Positions 1-22,658 of a stretch of DNA of 64,000 nucleotides are shown here, piece by piece. The translations under genes were made by a program, and so were the position numbers. This stretch comes from Meloidogyne chitwoodi (taxonomy: Eukaryota; Nematoda; Chromadorea; Rhabditida; Meloidogynidae): the NCBI GenBank assembly GCA_015183035.1, contig JACZZP010000021.1, positions 62,001-126,000 on the forward strand, written 5' to 3'. Position 1 is the stretch's first letter. Every line of letters begins with the position of its first letter. Below the pieces are notes generated by a model, which saw nothing but the letters and a program-made list of their open reading frames with translations, was not told the origin of the DNA and did no database searches.

Positions 1-3000
1 ATTTATGATTCTCCTCTACTCCTCTATTTTGATGGATCACATTTTAATGGAGTAATCAGCACAGGAGGGCTCTTTGGACAACCTTACTGTTTAGAGTGCG
101 AAACTGTATACTCTCGTCCGCAACAACATGCTACATCATGTCGAGCAAGATGTTTAAATTGCTCAAGAGTAGGGCCTCAATATCCCTGCTCTCCAAGGAA
201 CAACTTTTTTAAAAAATGTAAAGGGTGTTCCAAGAAATTTAACAACGATGAATGCTACATTCATCATTTAAATTGCAACTTCTGCCAACAGTCAAAACGT
301 TGTGAAAAATGTGGAGTAATATGGAGTACAACATTAAACAACAGAGCTGGAAGAAAAGGACATGTTTGCAATGAGAGATATTGTAAGCTTTGTATAGGAT
401 TCCACGATCCGAAGAGGGGATGTTTCGTTAAACCGCTAGAGTCGAAGGTTCAAAAGCCATACAGAATTGTGGTTTTTGATCTTGAGACAATGCAGCATCT
501 GGCGACAAATAACAACAAAAGAAAGCATCAAACAAATTTTGTAGCTGCAAGAGTAACTTGTCCTCTCTGCATAAATGAGGAGCAAAATGAGTGCAGAATA
601 TGTGGGAGCAGTCGACTCATAACTTTTTCAGAGCGTCCATTTTTTCAAGACTGCAGTTGATTCAAAAAAGGTCTGTGCAGATCCAATAGTCTCCTTTGTT
701 AAGTGGCTCCTTCAAACAACAAAGGAATTCGACACAATAGCCTTCTCTCACTTTGGAGGAAAGTTTGATATGGTTATAGTGTTCAGAGAGCTTTTCCTTC
801 TTGGCTTCACTCCCGAAATGTTAAAAAATGGAAATAAAATGTATGAGATGAAAGTGAGAATTGGGAAAAAGAACACGCTCATCTTTAGGGACAGCTTCAA
901 CTTGATGCCGATGTCCTTGGCATCACTTGTCCCAGCATTTGCTCTTGAGGTTGAAGATAAGCCGTTCTTCCCTCACCTTTCAAATCAACCTAAGAACTAT
1001 GGAAAAGAAATTTTTCCTTCCCCATCCGATTATTTCGCGAATGGGATGATGCCTGAGAAGAGGAAGGAGTTTGATCAATGGTACACTCTTCATAAAGAAG
1101 AATCTTTTCTTTTAGATGAAGCTTTGGCCTCATACTGCACCAATGATGTGGAGATCTTGTTAGCTGCTCTTATAGCTTTCAGGCGAGAATTTATGGAAGT
1201 TAGCAAAAGAGGACCTTCTCAGAGAGCAGCTTCAAATAGAGCACATAATGGTATTGATGTACTCCACCAATCGATGACCATCGCTTCAGCCTGCATGAAT
1301 CACTTCAGGACAAATCATCTGAAGGAAGATCATCTTGCTCTCGTCCAGAAAAGGGTTACGACAACGCAGATAATCAGAGCAAACTTGCTCTGAAATTTTA
1401 AAAATGGTATTTGGAGGAGCATGGAGTAGAAGTCCAAACTGCGTATTCAAGAGGAGGAGAGAAAAAAGTAGGAAATTATAAGTTGGATGGATGGATTGAG
1501 GAGGAGAAAATGGAATAGAAGTAAATGGGTGCGTATGGCATGGGTGCGAGCGTTGTTATCCTGAATACAATATATTGCTCCCCAACGGAGTTTCAGCAGG
1601 TAAACAACGTGAAAAGGATGAACTTCGATTAAATTTCATCAAAAGTCAAGGAATTACAGTCCAAATCTTCTGGGAGTGTGAAATAAGGAGAATGTTGGAT
1701 AAAAACAGAGAAATGAGGAGAAGCTTCAAAAATTATGTGGACAATGGACCCATCGATATACGCTCTTCCTTTTTTGGAGGGAGGACTGGTCCATTGCGGC
1801 TCTTCTACACTCCAAGAGCCGGGGAGGTGATTTCATATTATGATGTCACCTCCCTCTATCCTTACATCAATGTGACCACTAAATATCCTGTGGGTCACCC
1901 AGAAGTGCACATCTTGAACAAAGATGTGATTTGGACAAGGCCTGAAGATAATACTTTCGAACTAGCAATTCTGAAAGTATTTGTCATTCCTCCGAGGAGC
2001 ATCGACATCCCAGTGCTCCCCATGAAGATTGGAGAGGATGACGAGCGACTCCTCTTTCCTCTTTGTGCAAAATGTGCAAGAGAGCAACCTGGAGGAGGAG
2101 TAAATGAGAATTACTCCTGTCCTCATTCAGACACGCAACGTGGCTGGGTGAGTACCTGTACCTCAATTGAGCTGAATGCAGCTCTTGAGGAAGGATACAG
2201 GGTGACAAAATTATTTCGAGTTTTGGAATACACTCGATCAGATGATACATTATTTGCTCCATACATCCGAGAATTTATGGCAGCAAAAATACACTCCTCT
2301 GGATTTGATGAGAAGATGAAGGAAAATATGAAGAGGAGGAGAAATTCATCAAAGAATGTAAAGATAAATTTGGAATTTTAATTGAGAGGAGTAAGATGGA
2401 ACCAAATAAAGGGAAAAGAACACAGTCCAAATTGATGTTGAATAATTTATGGGAAGATTCTCCCTAAGAAATGAAGGACTTTCTCAATGTGCCATCATAA
2501 ACAACACTGCTGAACTCTGCAAATTCTACGAAGACAAATCAATTGTTATTTCGAGCATAGACGAACTTATTTCAGGTATTTTGCTCATCAATTATATTAA
2601 AAAGGACTGGATCGAGGAACATGCATCGTCCAACGTAGTCATCTCTCTATGGACAACTTCAGCTGCACGTTTACATTTGCTCCGTGCTATGCAAAAGGTT
2701 GTTCGTACTCCAGGTTGTAAGTTGCTTTATACCGACACGGACTCTCTTATTTTCTCGCATCCTAAAGAGTCGTGCCCACTCCAGCTCGGGGCTCATTTAG
2801 GGGAATTAACTGATGAATACCCCTCCCATGAGATTCTTGAGTTTGTTTGTGGAGGATCTAAGCAATATGGCCTCAAGCTTAGAAAAAAAGAGCGAGGAGG
2901 AGAAGGAGCAGAATTCGACTACACGCTCAAAATTAGAGGAATGACGCTCAACTGGGATGTCGTGGAAAATCAAGGACTAAGATATGACACTTTCAAAGAA

Positions 3001-3220
3001 CAGGTTTTTAACTTATGCAACAACAGGAGAATTAAAACCTATAGATATTTTATACCCTAACTTTTTGCGACCATCAATTAAAGATGGTTGTGTCACATCT
3101 CAATCACAACATAAAATGTATAAACCTGTAGTTTGTAAAGGGGTAATTCGCCCCTCTGATTTTAATGTACTTTATTTTGGCTTCATTAATAATCGCCATC
3201 CTAGAATTTCACCTCCATAA
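1..3220 (+). pseudogene. Protein-primed family B DNA polymerase of a Polinton (pPolB), frameshifted
   Basis: Replicative DNA polymerase of the element. Frame 1 is open from base 1, so the N-terminus is cut by the window edge. A Cys-rich zinc-binding-like stretch (about 100-420) precedes the exonuclease domain. Exo I is FDLETM (frame 1, about 477), exo II HFGGKFD (about 750), exo III YCTNDVE (about 1133). Polymerase motif A is YYDVTSLYPYIN (about 1838), motif B LNNLWGRF (about 2438), motif C YTDTDSLIF (about 2730). Four breaks are visible: a one-base shift in the T run near 640, shifts plus an in-frame stop between about 1390 and 1560, a shift near 2380 and one near 3000. The C-terminus ends in a third frame at 3220. 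Every motif survives, so decay is recent, or some homopolymer indels are assembly errors. Confidence 0.93.
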
Positions 3221-4680: not shown

Positions 4681-5049
4681 AATATAATTTGGTTGAGCTA
4701 AAAATAATAAAATATGAGGGACCATCTTATATTTAATATTTAGAAAATTTAAATTTATTTAAAATTTATATTTTAAATTAATTTTTCCTCCTCCTCATTT
4801 TTCTCATCTTTCACCTACACCTCCTCCTCCTTGAATTACAACTAACTCTCAGCTACACCTCCTCCTCTCAAGTAGTAAACGAGCAAAAATATTAATTAAA
4901 ATTTTTGGGGCGGAGCTTATTATTAATTTTTGATGAGGTCTGGTATTTAAGCTAAAATTTTTTATCTTTAATTTTATAATAATCATTTTAATAAATATGA
5001 ATTCTAAAAATAAATTACTCCTCCTACTCCTCTTCTAATAAAGTTATTG

Positions 5050-5577
5050 ATGAGTGCTGTAATATTTTATCCTGTTGCGGCGAAATCCTTAAAGGATCAA
5101 TTTAATCATCCGGACAATAGAGCTATTATTTTGAAAGCACTACTAGGTCGTAAAGTACAAACGACCTATCTTGACAAAAATGGATTTAAAAAAAGATTTA
5201 TGATTGATGGCCTCTCAAGAAGAGGAGCAAATTCAATCAAATCATATGGGAAATTGCCTTTCCCATATAATGTGAGCGTTGCAGCTCACTTTTATGCACG
5301 ACATAGAATTCGTCTGCGCTTTCCATACCTCCAATGCATTATTGAGAGGTTTCCATTTGGAGGAGAGGATAGACATTATCCTCTCGAACTCCTAGAATTT
5401 GTCAAAGAGAAGAGCAAGGAGGAGGAGGAGAAAACTAAGATATTCAAATGGATGGATCAACTCCCATCTGATATTTCAACAAAATGTAATATCTCTGAGG
5501 AGCAAGAGTCTAAGGAGACAAATATTTCGGATGACACACAGATGTATTGCTATAGCGGTGATCTGAGCCAATGGTAA
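5050..5577 (+). CDS. Stand-alone PAZ-like (Argonaute small-RNA 3'-end-binding) protein carried by the Polinton
   Basis: 175 aa from ATG 5050; a TTG three bases earlier could also open the frame. Residues about 24-118 resemble an Argonaute PAZ domain: LLGRKVQTTY, then KKRFMIDGLSRRGA, then SVAAHFYARHRIRLRFPYLQ and finally YPLELLEFV. These match the family pattern of a LkGlkV-tty strand, an r-f-i-gls strand, V-YF--(Y/R)-I-L--P-L and yPlEl--iv. No MID or PIWI domain follows; the tail is charged and acidic (KEEEEK, then Ser/Asp-rich) to a stop at 5575. In Argonautes, PAZ anchors the 3' end of guide RNA. Position between polymerase and protease, intact frame and GGAGGA-rich base use like neighbouring Polinton genes argue it is cargo of the element. 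Inference: captured host Argonaute fragment, possibly an RNAi decoy. Assignment is by pattern only. Confidence 0.68.
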   Translation: MSAVIFYPVAAKSLKDQFNHPDNRAIILKALLGRKVQTTYLDKNGFKKRFMIDGLSRRGANSIKSYGKLPFPYNVSVAAHFYARHRIRLRFPYLQCIIERFPFGGEDRHYPLELLEFVKEKSKEEEEKTKIFKWMDQLPSDISTKCNISEEQESKETNISDDTQMYCYSGDLSQW

Positions 5578-5606: not shown

Positions 5607-6092
5607 TTAATACTTATTTGTTCTTATTCTTAAATTTTTATAATTTTTTATAATTTTATTCACAATTTTAATAACAAACAAATCTGTATTTTGTTTTGAT
5701 ACTAATAAATTAATATATTGAGTAAATGTGTAATTCTGTGATAAATAATAAATTAGGGAAATACAATGGTGAGCACAAGTTTTTGAGAAGGGGGATTGAT
5801 AGGGGTTTAAATTTCTTTTTACATTTTTAAAATTTTTTAAAAAGGAGTTTATAATACATGAACTTATAGGTAATGATAAACTATCAAAATAATATACTTG
5901 GTCTTTTTCTAAATAAAGAGTAACCCAATGTGATCCTTCCATCTCATGAGAGTCTAAATTGACAATAAGAGCTGTAGGATATGTTGATATTGAGTTAGGA
6001 GTAGGGAGCAAGTCACACGGAAAACACCCTAGAAAAATTTTGCTCGTCTTTTGATTTGATCTCAATATTTGAATTATCTGAGTGCTGTACAT
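5607..6092 (-). CDS. Adenain-like cysteine protease (Polinton maturation protease)
   Basis: 161 aa, ATG at 6092. The C5/Ulp1-fold catalytic elements appear in order: GSHWVTLYL (catalytic His, about residue 54), VYYFDSLSLP (acidic residue, about 69), and YQSPFSKTCAHHC (oxyanion Gln followed by nucleophile Cys, about 98-110). This spacing is that of adenovirus-type proteases. In Polintons the enzyme is thought to process capsid proteins. The frame is intact; its 5' end overlaps the preceding membrane-protein frame by about 80 bases in another frame. Confidence 0.88.
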   Translation of the reverse strand: MYSTQIIQILRSNQKTSKIFLGCFPCDLLPTPNSISTYPTALIVNLDSHEMEGSHWVTLYLEKDQVYYFDSLSLPISSCIINSFLKNFKNVKRNLNPYQSPFSKTCAHHCISLIYYLSQNYTFTQYINLLVSKQNTDLFVIKIVNKIIKNYKNLRIRTNKY

Positions 6093-6445
6093 TTCTACGC
6101 AAAATGTTTACTCGAACCCAAAGTATTGATCGAAGTTGATAAATAATTAAACTTATAATAAGAAGAATATACATACAAATCATTCCCCAGCAAAATATAT
6201 GTCCATATATATCTTGTGGTGACTCCTTACATAATTGAATAGAAGGAAAAATTACTCCCAAAAGGACTTGGAGCTGAAATTTTTTCAATTGTAGAATTTT
6301 TCTTAGGATAGCCCAATTGTCGTAAATATTCTGAATATTCTGGTAGATTTTCAAAGTCTACACTCCCAAAAGTAGTTAGAGTATTAACCAAAGGAGCAAA
6401 AGCGCGAAGTAAAAATAAAATTTTTGCAAAATTTTTAAAAAACAT
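6013..6445 (-). pseudogene. Small membrane protein, apparently frameshifted
   Basis: A frame starting at ATG 6445 has a hydrophobic N-terminus (ILFLLRAFAPLV) and runs to a stop at 6227. A second frame, open from about 6354 to 6013 but lacking an ATG at its beginning, has a clear transmembrane segment (CMYILLIISLIIYQL) followed by basic residues. The two look like halves of one two-hydrophobic-segment protein, with a one-base shift close to 6230. No family recognised. If both were real and separate, the second would need a non-ATG start. Confidence 0.45.
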
Positions 6446-6485: not shown

Positions 6486-7820
6486 TTAAATAGTAGTATC
6501 ACTTGTTATCGATCTATTTTTGTCTAACATGATAAGTGCATCTGTTTCTCCCATCACTATTAGCATCGCTCCGCCCTCTGGAATCGGTTGACTAAATTTA
6601 ATATTTACAGCTGTTGACCCATTTTTAATTAAATCAAAAGTTCCTCCACTATCTTCTCCGCTATTTGTAAGATTGAATACATACATGCAATGAGTCCTCC
6701 CATATTGAAGATATGTTATACCATTGCTTTCTGATGTACCTGAAAATCCTATCGCCTCATTCATATCATAAAATGCTCTAACATAACGATTTGAACCATA
6801 ATCTAAATCGTAGAGTGCTTGGGGATAAGAACGTCCATTCGCTATAATACTAATTTCTCTAACTCTAAATGGTTGGAAATTAAAAGGACTTGTTTCCGAA
6901 GTTCCAACATAATCTGTATTGGCTACTAAGCCTAATGTAATACGTCGAGGAATCTGATCCATAAAAAGATTGGCATTGAACTCATATCTCCCTTGACTAA
7001 TAAATAAAGCTTTCATCATAGTTTTCCTAATTGCATATCGAGCAGGTTTAAGATCAAGGCTCCTAGCAATATTTAGAGATAACCCATCCATCAAATCCAT
7101 TTTTTTCACATAGAGTTTACAACTAAGTACTTCAAAATGGTATCGTGTCGGTTGAACATCTGGAACAGCCACAGCTGGAGGAGGTGCAATAAGAACAAAT
7201 TTTGTCTCATTAGGTAATATTTCTATGTCTATTTCGCAATGATTTATAAGATACTGAGGCTGATTGAAAAGATCAGCATCTAACTTAGAAATAAATTGAA
7301 CTTTTCGGCTATTTACAAATAAACCTTTTCTAGCATTAAAACTTGCTCCTGACTCTAAGGATGTACTTGTATCATAATAATAACCAGCAGCATTTAGATG
7401 TGAATTTTTTGCTCCTTGGGAGTAGGATAATTCATGAGAAAAGTAAGTTTTATACGCATAAAGAGAGTTTGAATTAAATATTTCTCTTCCATTTACACTT
7501 ATTCTCATATTATTAATAAATGTACTCCCTATCATTTGAATAGGAGCAACATTTTCATCAAGACCTATATTTATTAATTGTCCATTTGCATTTTCTTTGC
7601 GGATACGAAATTCAGTGTAAAGATAACATTTGGAAAGGTCAATAAAGTTTTCACTTGAATAAATTTTAAAATGATAGGGTGTATCAGTCAAAGGATTACT
7701 AGGTAGAGTTTCAAAGACTTTGGAGGAGGATATGCTTACATTTGTTGGGGGAATATGAAAGAAATCTAGAGCATTTGTAATTGAGTCAACACTATCTTTA
7801 TCAATTTTATGAAATGCCAT
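6486..7820 (-). CDS. Polinton major capsid protein (double jelly-roll type, F54H12.2-like)
   Basis: 444 aa, ATG at 7820. The sequence matches the conserved nematode Maverick protein typified by C. elegans F54H12.2, a family identified as the Polinton double-jelly-roll major capsid protein. Visible marks are the N-terminal FFHIPPTNVSI, the strand-rich pattern with MIGSTFINNMRISVNGREIF, FVLIAPPPAV, RRITLGLV and the C-terminal IPEGGAMLIVMGETD. The length is typical and the frame is intact. It sits between the protease/membrane block and the small capsid-associated gene, the usual morphogenesis cluster. Confidence 0.88.
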   Translation of the reverse strand: MAFHKIDKDSVDSITNALDFFHIPPTNVSISSSKVFETLPSNPLTDTPYHFKIYSSENFIDLSKCYLYTEFRIRKENANGQLINIGLDENVAPIQMIGSTFINNMRISVNGREIFNSNSLYAYKTYFSHELSYSQGAKNSHLNAAGYYYDTSTSLESGASFNARKGLFVNSRKVQFISKLDADLFNQPQYLINHCEIDIEILPNETKFVLIAPPPAVAVPDVQPTRYHFEVLSCKLYVKKMDLMDGLSLNIARSLDLKPARYAIRKTMMKALFISQGRYEFNANLFMDQIPRRITLGLVANTDYVGTSETSPFNFQPFRVREISIIANGRSYPQALYDLDYGSNRYVRAFYDMNEAIGFSGTSESNGITYLQYGRTHCMYVFNLTNSGEDSGGTFDLIKNGSTAVNIKFSQPIPEGGAMLIVMGETDALIMLDKNRSITSDTTI

Positions 7821-7823
7821 CGT

Positions 7824-8328: not shown

Positions 8329-10194
8329 TTAAAAATTTATCACTTTTTTAAAAATCAACACTATGCTTACAGTACCATATGCAAATGGTACAAGTCTCCC
8401 ATTATCCATTGTTCTTAATTCAACTTCAATTTCATTAACTTCTCTAGGGAGTACTTTGACATAAATGGGTGAGTCATAAATTTTCTCATGATATTCTCCA
8501 TGTATTGCTCCAGAAACAGAAACAATTCTCAGTAATGAACTTAGAGAATTTCCAACAATCATATTTTCAGTAAGTCCTTTTGCATAAATTGCAAAACTTG
8601 AAAATCCTCCTCTTAAGTCACAACCATACTTGGCAATTTCATTATTTTGTACAAATTGTGGATTAGCAAATCCTAAAACATATCCTAATTGAGGAGAAAA
8701 TGATAAATATTTGATACTTGAATGAGTGAAAGATAATTTAAATCTTTTAAAATCAGAGTGATAAGTAATTGAAATGGAGTCAATAATTTGTTTTAAAAGA
8801 GTAACTGTATATGCCGTTTTCTTAACTTTGTTCCCCTTTCCAAACAATATTTCAAAAACATCTTGTTTTTCTTCTTCCTTTTTAGATTTTAAACCTATGG
8901 CATCTAATACACTTTGTGATGTTTGAGTTGAACTAGTTTTTTTATCCAATCCTATAATATTCAAAACATCAGTCGAATTTCTCACTTTCTCTTGAGTTTG
9001 AGGAGGAGGAGAAGCAGGAGTAGTAGTATGAGGAGGAGTAGTAGTATGAGGAGGAGGAGTAGCATGAGAAGTATTAGGAGGAGGAGAAGCACGAGGAGGA
9101 TTGATAGGTTTTACTTTTGTATCATTCTCTTTTTTATCCAATCCCATTATACTCATAACACTATTTCCTGTTGCACTATTATCCTTTTTCTTTGAATTAT
9201 CTAAACCCATAATACTCAAAACAGTAGATACTTGATCTTGAGTTTGAGGAGGAGGAGAAGCAGGAGGAGGAGGAGAAATAGGAGGAGGAGTGATAGGTTT
9301 TATTACTGTTTCATTATTCTCAATAGTTGAATTATCTAGACCTATAGTACTCAATACACTAGAATTTTTAATCTCTTCTATTTTATTTTTCTTCTCTGGT
9401 GGAGGCTCCTCTTCATTATTTTCAGAGTATGAAGATTTATCTAATTTACTTTTCTCATCGATATCTGGTGAAGGAGAGCTAGATTCCTTTTGAGGTGTCT
9501 GAGGAGTAAGAGGAGGAGGAGAAGGAGAAGCCGGAGGAGGAGTAATAGGAGGAGTGATATGTTCCTTCTGAGGTGTAGGAGGAGAAGAAGCAAGAGGAGG
9601 AGTAATAGATTCCCTTTGAGGTGTAAGAGGAGGAGAAGGAGAAGCAAAAGGAGGAGTAATAGGTTGCTTTTGAGGTGAAGGAGGAGGAGAAGGAGAAGGA
9701 GAAGCAAAAGGTGGAGTAATAGGTTCAGGTAATTTAGTATTAATTTCCACTGTACCCTCAATTCTAGAGGGAGTTTTTATCACATGTTCACGTTTATGTC
9801 TACGAAATTTTACATTGAAAATACTTGGTTTTTTAACTAATCCTTCAGATGAGTCTTCAAGAGGTGAAGCTTCAAGAGCTGCACTTTGATGTAGTAAAGT
9901 AGAAATCAAAAATTGAAGAATTTCCTCGGGTGTATTATGTGAACCTTTAGGGACTGGAACTCGTATAACTTGTCCCATTTTATTATTGTCTGTAAAATTA
10001 ATATCTATCCATTGCTCATCAAGAGTCCCAATAGTGGAAGGCCAAGAATATGGATAACTTATACTATGAACACCACATACCCAGTCACGTGCAAAATAGA
10101 GAGGCTTAGGTAAATGAACACGAAATTTATTCGGTTGATTTTGAGGATAATCCGAAACATTACTTAATAAACAAACATAGAAACTATTTGACAT
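8329..10194 (-). CDS. Polinton minor capsid (penton-base-like) protein with Pro-rich insert
   Basis: 621 aa from the ATG at 10194; an in-frame ATG at 10263 would add 23 hydrophobic residues but MSNSFYVCLLSN is the usual family start. The N-terminal part (VSDYPQNQPNKFRVHLPKPL, then WVCGVHSISYP) and the C-terminal part (PREVNEIEVELRTMDNGRLV, FAYGTVSIVLIFKK) match the Polinton penton-like single-jelly-roll protein. Between residues about 150 and 460 is a low-complexity insert of ITPPxASPSPPP blocks with five copies of a short motif of the form VLSxxGLD. The frame is intact despite the repeats. Confidence 0.78.
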   Translation of the reverse strand: MSNSFYVCLLSNVSDYPQNQPNKFRVHLPKPLYFARDWVCGVHSISYPYSWPSTIGTLDEQWIDINFTDNNKMGQVIRVPVPKGSHNTPEEILQFLISTLLHQSAALEASPLEDSSEGLVKKPSIFNVKFRRHKREHVIKTPSRIEGTVEINTKLPEPITPPFASPSPSPPPSPQKQPITPPFASPSPPLTPQRESITPPLASSPPTPQKEHITPPITPPPASPSPPPLTPQTPQKESSSPSPDIDEKSKLDKSSYSENNEEEPPPEKKNKIEEIKNSSVLSTIGLDNSTIENNETVIKPITPPPISPPPPASPPPQTQDQVSTVLSIMGLDNSKKKDNSATGNSVMSIMGLDKKENDTKVKPINPPRASPPPNTSHATPPPHTTTPPHTTTPASPPPQTQEKVRNSTDVLNIIGLDKKTSSTQTSQSVLDAIGLKSKKEEEKQDVFEILFGKGNKVKKTAYTVTLLKQIIDSISITYHSDFKRFKLSFTHSSIKYLSFSPQLGYVLGFANPQFVQNNEIAKYGCDLRGGFSSFAIYAKGLTENMIVGNSLSSLLRIVSVSGAIHGEYHEKIYDSPIYVKVLPREVNEIEVELRTMDNGRLVPFAYGTVSIVLIFKKVINF

Positions 10195-10288
10195 TTTTAT
10201 CACGAATGAAATGAAATACAATAAAATTAACCCTTTTATACAAGTTGGGTTTCGTGAATCCATTCCCTTTCGGGATAACCAACAAATT

Positions 10289-11314
10289 TTACGAGTATAT
10301 CAAAAGTTCCATCAGTTCTTTTTTTCTTTTTATAACCTTCTCTATTCTATACTCCGTATCTGCATCATTCCTAACACGTGACAACTCTTCTCCATAATAA
10401 TATCCCTTGTATTTATCACCAGAATCATTAATAATTTTATATCGAATAGGACGAAATTGATCTTGGACTTGATTGACTTTTAAAATTTGGTCTCCCCAGT
10501 TAGGAATATACCCCTTTTCAAAAGCTCCTTTTCCTATACTCACACGAACAAAATCTCCTTTTTATGTTTAGACTTTTTCTTCTTCTCTGAAAATTCATCT
10601 CCGTACATTTTCTTCCAAACATCTTGAGCATTAGAAAAATTGACATCTAATGGTCGCATCCCATGCACTCTACTCTTTGACTTATTAATTCCCTCCAAGA
10701 TTTTATCTAAAATATCAATCCAATTTAGTGCTTTATTTTGAGCAAAGTATCTATAAAGTCTTTGCTTTACATTTCTAATTGCTCTTTCAGCAACAGACGC
10801 CTTAACGGTTGAATGAGTAGCTTCATTTTTTGAATCTCCTCTTTTCAAAATACTCCTTAACAACTTTATTTTTAAATTCTAATCCTTTATCAGAGAAAAT
10901 TCTATGAGGTTTCATTGGCATTTGATCTATAAGTTTTTTAAATGCTTCAAGCATATCATTAGACCCTTTTGTTTTTACAGGTACTCCAAAGAGGCGTTTA
11001 GAGAGCACATCAACTCCTAAGAGAATATATTTATTTCCTTTATTATGTCTTGAAAGAGCTTGCATGTCCGCTAAATCTACTTGGACATCTGTCATAAATC
11101 CTGCCGCTATAGTTTTTGCTCTTTTAAAATGTACTCTTTTAGGACGCATAAGAGTATATGTTCTATGTCCCTCCAAATAATTTTGCACAACTTTTCTAGG
11201 TAAGTTTTTTACAACTTTTCGCGCTTCATACCATAATCTATCAATTCCTGAATACGCAGCAGGAGAATTTGGATCATTATAGAGATTTTGTAAAAGTTTA
11301 GTAGGATCTGACAT
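10289..11314 (-). pseudogene. Polinton integrase (RVE/DDE family), two frameshifts
   Basis: Retroviral-type integrase that would insert the element. Frame one from ATG 11314 carries the first catalytic Asp (DVQVDLADM) and the second (FSDKGLEF). The third residue is in VKASVAERAIRNVKQ in a second frame (10863-10540). The C-terminal SH3/chromo-like part (GAFEKGYIPNWGDQILKVNQ, YKGYYYGEEL) is in a third frame (10543-10289). Shifts lie in AAAAGAGGAG near 10850 and in AAAAAGG near 10555. All three catalytic residues remain, so decay is recent, or these are homopolymer errors. The stop of the next gene lies only about 4 bases upstream of this start. Confidence 0.9.
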
Positions 11315-11317
11315 TTT

Positions 11318-12803: not shown

Positions 12804-13463
12804 TTATAAGAATGAAGATTTTGGAATAAAAATTATCTTCTCCTCATCCTCCTTAAATATGTTTGTCCGAAGTCTTAGAGTAGGGTCTGAGGAAGCGTGT
12901 AAATCGATGAGAAGATATCCATAAGGTAAATTAGTTGCTTTTTTATAAGCATCAAGAAAATAGTCAAGCTGACGTGGAAATAATTGTACACCTATATTTC
13001 TAATAGAAAGAGCAGAATTTGGAGAGCGCATGAGTACAATATATTGAGCATTTTGACGTGCAACTTTAATTTTTTTATCAAATAAATTTTGAGTAACAAA
13101 AACAATTGCAAAATTCTGATGATGCGATTTTTTAGTAAATAGCTCTGAAAGATATTTTTCATCTATAGAGAGGAGTAAATCATCAAGAATTAATAATAAA
13201 GGTTTAGGAAATTTTTTAATTAACTCTTCGGATGGAACTCCCGAATAAACATTAACTCCTGATTTTTGAAGAATTGGAATATTATTACTCATTTCTCCAA
13301 AACAATAAAGTATACTTTTAAGTTTAGGTTCAATTAAATCTTGGGAGTCTGCAACAAATTTTAACAAAAATGAACTCTTCCCACTTGAACTAGGACCTGA
13401 CAAAATCATACCAAAAGGTAATTTCAATTTTAAATCTTTATTAGAAAATGTTTGTGATTCCAT
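12804..13463 (-). CDS. Genome-packaging ATPase (FtsK/HerA, A32-like)
   Basis: 219 aa, ATG at 13463. Walker A is GPSSSGKSSFLL (residues about 22-33) and Walker B PLLLILDDLL (about 88-97), followed by a sensor-like FVTQNLF (about 122). Size and motif spacing match the A32/FtsK-like ATPases of Polintons, adintoviruses and related capsid-forming elements, which pump DNA into preformed capsids. The frame is intact and lies next to the integrase/capsid cluster. Confidence 0.88.
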   Translation of the reverse strand: MESQTFSNKDLKLKLPFGMILSGPSSSGKSSFLLKFVADSQDLIEPKLKSILYCFGEMSNNIPILQKSGVNVYSGVPSEELIKKFPKPLLLILDDLLLSIDEKYLSELFTKKSHHQNFAIVFVTQNLFDKKIKVARQNAQYIVLMRSPNSALSIRNIGVQLFPRQLDYFLDAYKKATNLPYGYLLIDLHASSDPTLRLRTNIFKEDEEKIIFIPKSSFL

Positions 13464-13499
13464 ATTTTATATGATTAAAAAATATAAAAAATGAATGTC

Positions 13500-14153: not shown

Positions 14154-15360
14154 TTTTTATGAATGATTGAATATAAAACTAAAGATTAAAAATTTTTCAA
14201 CTTAAATAGTCAGACCTCATCACATTTAAAATTAAGCTCCGCCCACAAAAAGATTACCTAAATTTTATTGTTAAAAATATTTACTCTTATATTCACTAGA
14301 TATGAGGAGAATGAAAAAGATGAGGAGGAGGAATAAAAAAAAGTAGGAGTAGGAATGAAAAAAGAGTAGGAGGAATAAAAAAAGAGGAGGAGGAATGAAA
14401 AAAAGAGTAGGAGGAAATAAAAAAGAGGAGGAGTAGGAATGAAAATTAGGAGAGGAGGAATGAAAATTAGGAGAAGTAGTTGAAAGAAGAGGAGGAGTAT
14501 GTGAAAGAGGAGAATTTCTACTCCATATACATAAAAATAAAAAAAAATTTCTGTAGAAAAAAACCATTGTCCACTTTTCACTTATTAAATATGTAGTCCT
14601 AAAAAGGACTTTTTGGGTTTGAAGTTGACTTTTACACCTGTAATTCAAAAATAAAATTAATAAATAATAATTGAATATATACAAAATTAATAGAGGAGCA
14701 AGAGGAGGAGAAAATTTAGGAGGAGGAGGAAAAGTTAAAAGATGAGAAAAATTAGGAGGAGGAAAAGTTAAAAGAGGAGAAAAATTAGGAGGAGTAAAAG
14801 TTAAAATAGGAGCAATCAAAAGTTGACTTTTTCCTCCCATTACATCTATTAATAATTAAAGTGTTAAAAATTTTATAATTAAATATTCTGAATATTTTAT
14901 ACATTACAAATATTTGACTCCCACTACATCATCTCAAGGGTTTAGAGTTATTAACACCGACGACGACACCATTTAATTACCCTTGATACACAATATTAAA
15001 ATATAATAAAATATCTTAAATAATTAGCTGTCACAGATCAATCAAAAAGTTGACTTCCGACGACACCATCGTAGGATTTTATTACTCACATCTCCCACTC
15101 CCTCTTCCTCATCCCCTCGACATTGGCAAAAGGCTTTGTAGAAAAGGAGGAAAAAGCGCTCGAAAAGTTTAGAAAGCTCGTATAGGATGAGGTTCAATAG
15201 AAGATAAATGTTCGAGAGCGAAAACCCCCTATAGGTTTCGGGTAGAAGAACTGTTCAAAGGGATTAGATGTCACCTGTCACTTGTCAATCAAAAGTTAAC
15301 ACCTAGGCGCCGACGACGACACCGGCAGTGGTATAACTACTGGTGATTATTAACAAATTA
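14154..15360. other. Right flank of the Polinton: purine-rich and GACGACGACACC repeats, no gene
   Basis: 14280-14480 and 14695-14815 are built from AGGAGGA/AAAAGAGGAG tracts; the long open frames there are low-complexity translations. Between 14940 and 15330 the motif CGACGACACC occurs three times (about 14957, 15057, 15313), twice with a preceding TGTCA(C/A)...ATCAA-AAGTT block (about 15031 and 15270), giving diverged direct repeats. 15361-15764 is plain AT-rich sequence. Confidence 0.5.
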
Positions 15361-21858: not shown

Positions 21859-22658
21859 ATGTTTAAATTAATTTATTTAAATATTTTATTATTTGTTGTT
21901 TATTTAAAAAATAAATCAAATGCTGAAAATGAAATTGAAGGTCCTCCTCAAAGTTATACTTTCAAGCAATTAGAAAATATTCACAATATGTATGTGAATT
22001 ATATTTTAAAAATTAAAAAATAGAATTTAATTTAAGTAATAGAAAAAAGCGTTATGGTCCAGGAGGAAGTGGAGACAGTTATGGTGATGGTGCTGCTGGT
22101 ATCCCAGGGACCTATTCCACTAAACGACATTTTGACAACTGTCAGTCGACTGAGTGAAATAGTATAATGTGGAGGGAGAAGGAAGCGGGAGTAAGAATAG
22201 CCTACAGTTAGAGAAGTCAACTGATATTTGTCTAACATATGCGTCACTTTTTTGCGACACAGCTCACACCCAGCATCGCAAAAAAGTGACGCATATGTTA
22301 GACAAATATCAGTTGACTTCTCTAACTGTAGGCTATTCTTACTCCCGCTTCCTTCTCCCTCCACATTATACTATTTCACTCAGTCGACTGACAGTTGTCA
22401 AAATGTCGTTTAGTGGAATAGGTCCCAGGTGGTTTCCCAGGTGATTGTTATGCTGTTGACAAAAAATGCAAATGTCCGTGCTGCTATTGTCAAGTTTCTA
22501 CGGAGACTCTAAAGCGTATGCAGATTCAAAGAAGACGATATCTACCGCCAAAACGCTATGTACCACCTCGAAGACCACATGTGCCTCCTAGACGATATTA
22601 TAACAATAGAAGACATGGATATTCAATAAGATGGTGGTGGAGAAAAAGATGGTGGTGA
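21859..22658 (+). pseudogene. Family A secreted protein, copy 5, exon 2 split by a palindromic transposon
   Basis: Exon 1 21859..21989, exon 2 from 22037, interrupted at 22107-22430, resuming to a stop at 22658. Before the insertion: leader, AENEIEGPPQSYTFK and NRKKRYGPGGSGDSYGDGAAG. After it: a Cys cluster (CYAVDKKCKCPCCYCQ) and basic tail with RPHVPPRRYYNNRRHGYS and WWWRKRWW. Reading into the element meets a stop soon, giving a truncated product. Counting one copy of the 9-bp duplication, both sides are in the same frame, so inactivation is due only to the insertion. Confidence 0.8.
22107..22430. mobile_element. Palindromic (foldback) MITE with 9-bp target duplication, MULE-like
   Basis: About 150-bp arms that are near-perfect reverse complements (22107-22256 and about 22275-22426) around a short loop near CACAGCTCACACCCAGCA. 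Flanked by GGTATCCCA (22098) and GGTTTCCCA (22431), 8 of 9 identical. A 9-bp duplication with long inverted repeats suggests a Mutator-like element. Confidence 0.8.

Follow-up and report, generated by a model that had tools for sequence, protein, structure and literature searches.

Near the left end of a 64,000-nucleotide stretch of the Meloidogyne chitwoodi genome (G000:C14:62001-126000, here called the window; the genome examined comprises 47.5 Mb in 30 contigs), a Polinton carries a gene for a stand-alone PAZ domain. The element is complete and 17.9 kb long (C14:59438-77341), and the window contains all of it except the left 2.56 kb. Its terminal repeats of ~980 bp are inverted and 98% identical across 988 aligned columns; AGTAGTTATACC begins both ends, and GGTGAT flanks each of them as a 6-bp target duplication. 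The PAZ gene lies in a stop-to-stop frame spanning 5014-5577 on the forward strand, between a broken family-B polymerase and a protease-like frame (Table 1). An earlier reading of the bare sequence, the original prediction, had placed a PAZ-like domain between polymerase and protease, assigned it to a Polinton and denied it MID and PIWI domains, and the analysis bears it out on all three points. It had also proposed a PF02170 profile search and a structural comparison with Argonaute PAZ domains, and both gave a positive answer.

The PF02170 PAZ profile matched the protein with an E-value of 6e-7 and 29.9 bits, above the curated cut-off of 28.8, and its best solved relative was the PAZ domain of human AGO2 (E 1e-3 with a single sequence, 1.5e-8 with a profile). 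In the AlphaFold model, the predicted local distance difference test score (pLDDT), averaged in blocks of ten residues, was 88-96 across residues 21-120. A Foldseek search of the PDB with this model gave 59 matches at E <= 0.001 and 600 at E <= 10; all 50 among the matches listed were Argonaute/PIWI-family chains, which identifies a PAZ fold, with identities of 12-26% in the structural alignments. These results confirm a genuine PAZ domain inside a genuine Polinton. Among the listed structure and profile matches of the PAZ proteins there was no Dicer chain, and the PAZ of Polintons appears, from these comparisons of sequences and models, to be of Argonaute type, which does not by itself exclude a Dicer origin. 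Only 54 residues remain past the Pfam match, so that MID and PIWI domains are absent from the frame; no PIWI match was found within 10 kb of the gene, and, judged by possession of MID and PIWI domains, the 175-amino-acid (aa) product is not an Argonaute. It resembles Argonaute (AGO/PIWI) PAZ domains in profile, in predicted fold, in the helical segment ahead of the domain and, apparently, in the majority of RNA 3'-end contacts, and is unlike Argonautes in its shortness, its lack of N, MID and PIWI domains, its low identity to the 50 listed chains and its carriage by a virus-like transposon. The element, in turn, resembles nematode Polintons (Mavericks) in its inverted repeats, 6-bp duplication, family-B polymerase, integrase-like, A32-like ATPase and protease-like genes and putative capsid gene, and has an extra PAZ gene that no paper among those listed in the literature searches describes.

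Table 1. Features of the Polinton and of related loci; coordinates are positions in the window unless a locus or contig is named.
Feature	Position	Strand	Remarks
Stand-alone PAZ gene	5050..5577	+	175 aa from first ATG; PF02170 match at residues 22-121; acidic tail, terminal Trp
Family-B DNA polymerase, broken	1..3060	+	Frames 1-660, 623-1393, 1500-2381 and 2446-3060; enters from left of window
Protease-like frame	5607..6107	-	Cysteine-protease-like His and Cys motifs by eye; 47 genome matches
Putative major capsid protein	6486..7823	-	445 aa, open, conserved; 62 genome matches
Putative virion protein	8329..10299	-	656 aa, open; no profile match
Integrase region, broken in window copy	10289..11317	-	Three frames: 10289-10561, 10540-10878 and 10823-11317
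A32-like packaging ATPase	12804..13466	-	Open; 65 genome matches
Right terminal inverted repeat	14361..15341		Left partner C14:59438-60419, outside window
Second-lineage intron loci	L057-L064 (G000:C13, C5, C1, C8, C28, C27, C4)		GT-AG, sequence only

The polymerase assignment passes its threshold (DNA_pol_B_2 on the 1500-2381 frame: E 2.2e-17, 63.6 bits, cut-off 25.8). The integrase region matched rve (E 5.8e-5) and an IS481-type profile (E 8.3e-10), each below its cut-off, and the ATPase frame matched Pox_A32 (E 2.4e-4, 21.1 bits) slightly below the cut-off of 22.8; the gene setting around both is that expected of a Polinton. We tentatively take the three other frames to be a protease, the major capsid protein and a virion protein: the first found neither profile support nor a match in the PDB, and the second, the candidate for a double jelly-roll capsid protein, had no meaningful match in Pfam, NCBIfam and PDB sequence searches. 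The original prediction held that the PAZ frame is intact while polymerase and integrase are broken, which stands for the PAZ core and not for the N-terminus. A sister copy at C3:368467, 99% identical to the window PAZ over residues 9-175, encodes a protein of 192 aa, the N-terminal stretch of which is read in a different frame in the window copy; the PAZ core is open in both. Because the capsid-like, protease-like and ATPase frames of the window element are likewise open, the openness of its PAZ gene is weak evidence of function, and the evidence for a function comes from other copies. The integrase, for its part, is in a single frame of 349-379 aa at 43 of its 62 genome matches.

With the window PAZ (P0001) as query, 39 matches were found in the genome, 33 of them in stop-free frames of 111-218 aa, and the 36 frames read, some of which are truncated, gave 27 distinct PAZ proteins. 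Merging the matches of P0001, of the PAZ family and of queries from the second lineage and third arrangement described below yielded 71 PAZ features; such counts are lower bounds, and many copies are near-identical and hence not independent. Fifty-one of these features have a match to the polymerase, protease-like, capsid-like or ATPase gene no more than 10 kb away (3.8% of the genome is this near to such a match), and 12 are equally close to a PIWI exon of a host Argonaute (two being exons of one gene), with no overlap between the two sets. Eight are near neither: four isolated ones, an open frame of about 200 aa (C25:897481), a broken copy of the second lineage (C2:1660818) and two decayed ones with equal scores, stops and no Polinton marker within 10 kb (C6:512515 and C6:538106). 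A PAZ feature occurs within 12 kb of 43 of the 54 capsid-like features (11 are without) and of 42 of the 48 polymerase features (6 are without). The expectation that other Polintons carry the gene is thus upheld by the 51 Polinton-near features; that it keeps the same position is not, since place and strand vary by lineage: opposite the polymerase, between protease and polymerase, between polymerase and ATPase, or just past the protease. Judging by the arrangement in the lineages of C14, C3, C30 and others, either the gene or its block has apparently changed place or orientation on more than one occasion.

The distance between PAZ and polymerase matches is at most 2.5 kb (372-2450 bp) for 34 of the 51 Polinton-near features, a proximity that favours a role with the element's own nucleic acid, in which PAZ would hold free 3' ends, whether of transcripts or of the linear genome in its replicating or packaged state, and aid replication or packaging. 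Protein-primed replication by polymerases of this type leaves free 3' ends, which also counts for such a role; PAZ prefers RNA, which counts against it, as do the differing place and strand of the gene and the slower change of the capsid-like gene. We regard this role as unlikely, even though the PAZ structure 1si2 was solved with a deoxynucleotide overhang, according to its record title, and an excerpt of PMC6361761 has AGO2 PAZ binding DNA.

Polymerase and PAZ also form pairs, inverted at C12:2248547-2255245, partly tandem at C26:1781322-1787999 and inverted at C6:112987-116651 and 135181-138845. The C12, C26 and second C6 loci lack any match to the capsid-like, ATPase or integrase genes up to 10 kb away; the arms of the C12 pair are 100% identical over 3465 nucleotides (nt), and a palindrome of 1519 nt on C6 has its centre in PAZ. 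These loci could be derivative elements or assembly fold-backs and were not counted as evidence.

Beyond the lineage of the window, second-lineage Polintons, with a capsid-like protein that shares about 31-33% identity with that of the window element, have their PAZ gene just past the protease. The PAZ forms the C-terminal half of the product by profile (E 1.7e-5 and 3.5e-5, below the cut-off), and the window and second lineages match each other as profiles over 67 columns with a probability of 97.9. Among ten further sequences scanned with PF02170, P0009 (30.9 bits) and P0026 (29.0) pass the cut-off, while P0020 (27.9), two second-lineage frames (25.2 and 24.2) and two third-lineage frames (24.7 and 18.0) fall below it; the three first-exon pieces in the scan matched no family. 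Read from sequence alone, a small GT-AG intron stands directly before QYFYVRHR in 8 of the 12 second-lineage loci examined, and the other 4 read through; predicted proteins of other Meloidogyne species, including M. graminicola, show no gap there. The third arrangement, on C3, C12 and C25, has identical first-exon frames, with an intron (L066, one copy read) about 5 nt from the second-lineage site. An intron shared with a host gene was considered and rejected: no match was shown, and in the single host gene used for comparison (ALG-like, L001) the intron sits at another place. The presence of many different PAZ-bearing lineages within one genome would suit a protein working for host and element jointly, for instance by binding element small RNAs to temper copy number or exclude rival Polintons. 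Nothing in the sequence indicates this, and we hold it to be very unlikely.

Relatives of the gene extend to other genera. The nearest named protein, from Meloidogyne enterolobii, is 68% identical to the window PAZ. Two protein searches with PAZ queries returned 27 and 49 proteins, all of 90-232 aa, a shortness partly built into searches that admitted lengths of 0.55-1.75 times the query. The named sources are Meloidogyne enterolobii, M. incognita, M. hapla and M. graminicola, Heterodera schachtii and H. trifolii, and Globodera rostochiensis; the PAZ of the other genera is known here at the protein level alone. Some of the proteins carry the database label 'PAZ domain-containing protein', without context. 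In viral databases, BFVD gave no match at E <= 1e-3 (best 9.9e-3), PHROGs no family for two PAZ proteins, and IMG/VR no relative for three PAZ queries or for the ATPase and capsid-like proteins.

Outside these elements PAZ is a domain of host proteins, and the two decayed copies on C6, with stops and away from Polinton matches, would fit the view that an exon of a host Argonaute was recently duplicated into transposons, or that PAZ was inserted by chance and has no function. The original prediction had named a fragment of a full host Argonaute as one finding that would overturn it and the lack of a PAZ hit by profile or structure as another; neither came about. A search that permitted full-length proteins (about 495-1575 aa) examined 217 candidates and found none at E <= 10; it sees close relatives and would miss one at the distance of human AGO2. 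The closest host PAZ exon (C28:1693649) is 38% identical over query residues 33-119. In a 33-row tree, the 27 family rows fall on one side of a branch marked 91/85 and not starred. On the donor clade this tree, a phylogeny with host rows of the kind that had been proposed, gives no decision, because three of the six host rows are long and less than half filled. A host Argonaute fragment was rejected on these three grounds, and the purifying selection described below, the diverged Polinton lineages and the relatives in other genera also count against a recent or functionless origin, which is largely refuted and in our judgement highly improbable.

As to the binding pocket, AGO2 residues H271, R315, H316, Y311 and Y338 are among the contacts of the 3' overhang (PMC5896489, in excerpt), and Y311 and F294 serve as pocket residues in the part available of PMC13083262. 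Their equivalents in the 28 members of the window family were taken from a sequence alignment to AGO2. R315 is Arg in 27 members and H316 is His in all 28, F312 is Phe in 26 and Tyr in 2, and 26 have Tyr, Phe or His at the position of Y338. All 16 members of the second lineage retain Y311 and R315, 15 retain H316, and all 16 have a His at the place of H271 (by eye). Most AGO2 positions in contact with the 3' end of RNA appear to be kept, which fits the predicted 3'-end binding.

The C-terminal tail ends in Trp in 17 of the 28 members of the database alignment and in 18 of the 27 distinct proteins of the genome, against 1.0% Trp overall, and this terminal Trp often stands in an acidic setting or as Gly-Trp (GW). 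The protein might accordingly act as a dominant-negative partner, binding Argonaute, Dicer or GW proteins instead of RNA, perhaps through the tail, and spoiling silencing complexes; the P1 suppressor of sweet potato mild mottle virus (SPMMV) binds AGO1 through WG/GW hooks in the text available of PMC2904775. The second lineage lacks the tail, the third ends differently, and such a model has no need of the RNA-contact residues, most of which are kept, so that we consider it rather unlikely.

The PAZ gene is under purifying selection in close pairs: the 12 closest (synonymous divergence, dS, 0.05-0.22) have ratios of nonsynonymous to synonymous divergence (dN/dS) of 0.04-0.25. Across 12 elements, with the sister copy C3:368467 in place of the window's PAZ, PAZ had a higher dN than the capsid-like gene in all 66 pairs, with a median ratio of 2.6.

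Because of the PAZ profile and fold, the Polinton context across lineages, the purifying selection, the faster change than that of the capsid-like gene and the apparent retention of most contact residues, we favour a Polinton-borne stand-alone PAZ, probably captured from an Argonaute, that likely acts as a silencing suppressor capping the 3' ends of worm small RNAs, and give this about an even chance. The PAZ pocket would bind small RNAs, namely transposon-directed products of Dicer or of RNA-dependent RNA polymerase; with their 3' ends occupied by free PAZ, host Argonautes would be less well loaded, and transcripts of the element could escape silencing. The acidic, Trp-ending tail of the commonest lineage may, at a guess, contact host silencing proteins. 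A fuller version, which we advance more tentatively and rate somewhat below even, is that a single ancient capture of an Argonaute PAZ by nematode Polintons produced this decoy, the first silencing suppressor in a virus or transposon to consist of PAZ alone, present in major Polinton lineages of plant-parasitic nematodes and engaged in an arms race with a piRNA-less defence (piRNA, PIWI-interacting RNA). According to the sections accessible of PMC4323106, piRNAs and PIWI are missing from clade IV nematodes, and 22-26-nt triphosphate RNAs antisense to transposons are made by the cyst nematode Globodera pallida; in Meloidogyne, the CSR-1 type is amplified and PRG-1 absent (PMC5934874, in excerpt). 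A later report on another clade IV species describes piRNA-like small RNAs against transposons (PMC9203780).

Several observations weigh against the decoy. A shared fold alone is no demonstration of function, and in the second lineage, whose AlphaFold model was built from 16 database proteins, human AGO2 PAZ was the sole listed PDB match with E < 1, at E 7e-3 and a root-mean-square deviation of 9.3, a weaker model. Within the pocket of the window family, H271 is replaced by Tyr in 26 of 28 members, Y311 by His in 27 of 28 and R277 by Lys in 20 of 28, and T337 is not kept, changes by which affinity may be altered or lost; the position of F294 falls in an unaligned loop. Free PAZ domains bind weakly, and a decoy would therefore need high expression. 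As for rates, more distant PAZ pairs are near saturation and uninformative (dN/dS 0.11-1.29). In the seven pairs with capsid-like dS < 1, PAZ dS is also 1.5-5 times higher, so that the faster change is partly not at the protein level, and dN/dS in the same pairs is 0.12-0.24 for PAZ and 0.06-0.20 for the capsid-like gene. A gene that is kept yet changes faster fits counter-defence, and it fits relaxed constraint equally well.

For the proposed suppression of silencing there are parallels among viruses. Viral suppressors of RNA silencing such as the p19 type and SPMMV P1 (PMC2904775) hold small RNAs or bind AGO, and they are not known as PAZ domains. The likeness to them lies in the proposed denial of small RNAs to Argonaute or interference with it. 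If the reading as a suppressor is true, a PAZ on a transposon would directly attest to counter-defence against the piRNA-less transposon control that the accessible part of PMC4323106 reports for clade IV; silencing would be suppressed in a novel manner, and a virus-like element would have acquired a domain of the very machinery that keeps it in check. The protein is short, has a well-folded predicted structure and is expected to express easily, and the idea is therefore directly testable. The original prediction knew of no described Polinton with such a gene, and in an open literature of 5.39 million papers, among the matches listed and at the level of titles and abstract openings, we likewise found no description of one; the nematode Polinton survey of Jeong 2023 lies outside that scope and may mention one. 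The portions available of PMC11071308, PMC11071296, PMC5934874, PMC4901422 and PMC6361761 describe no such gene.

Elsewhere in the window, positions 22104-22429 form a near-perfect (99%) inverted repeat of 154 nt with an 18-nt spacer.
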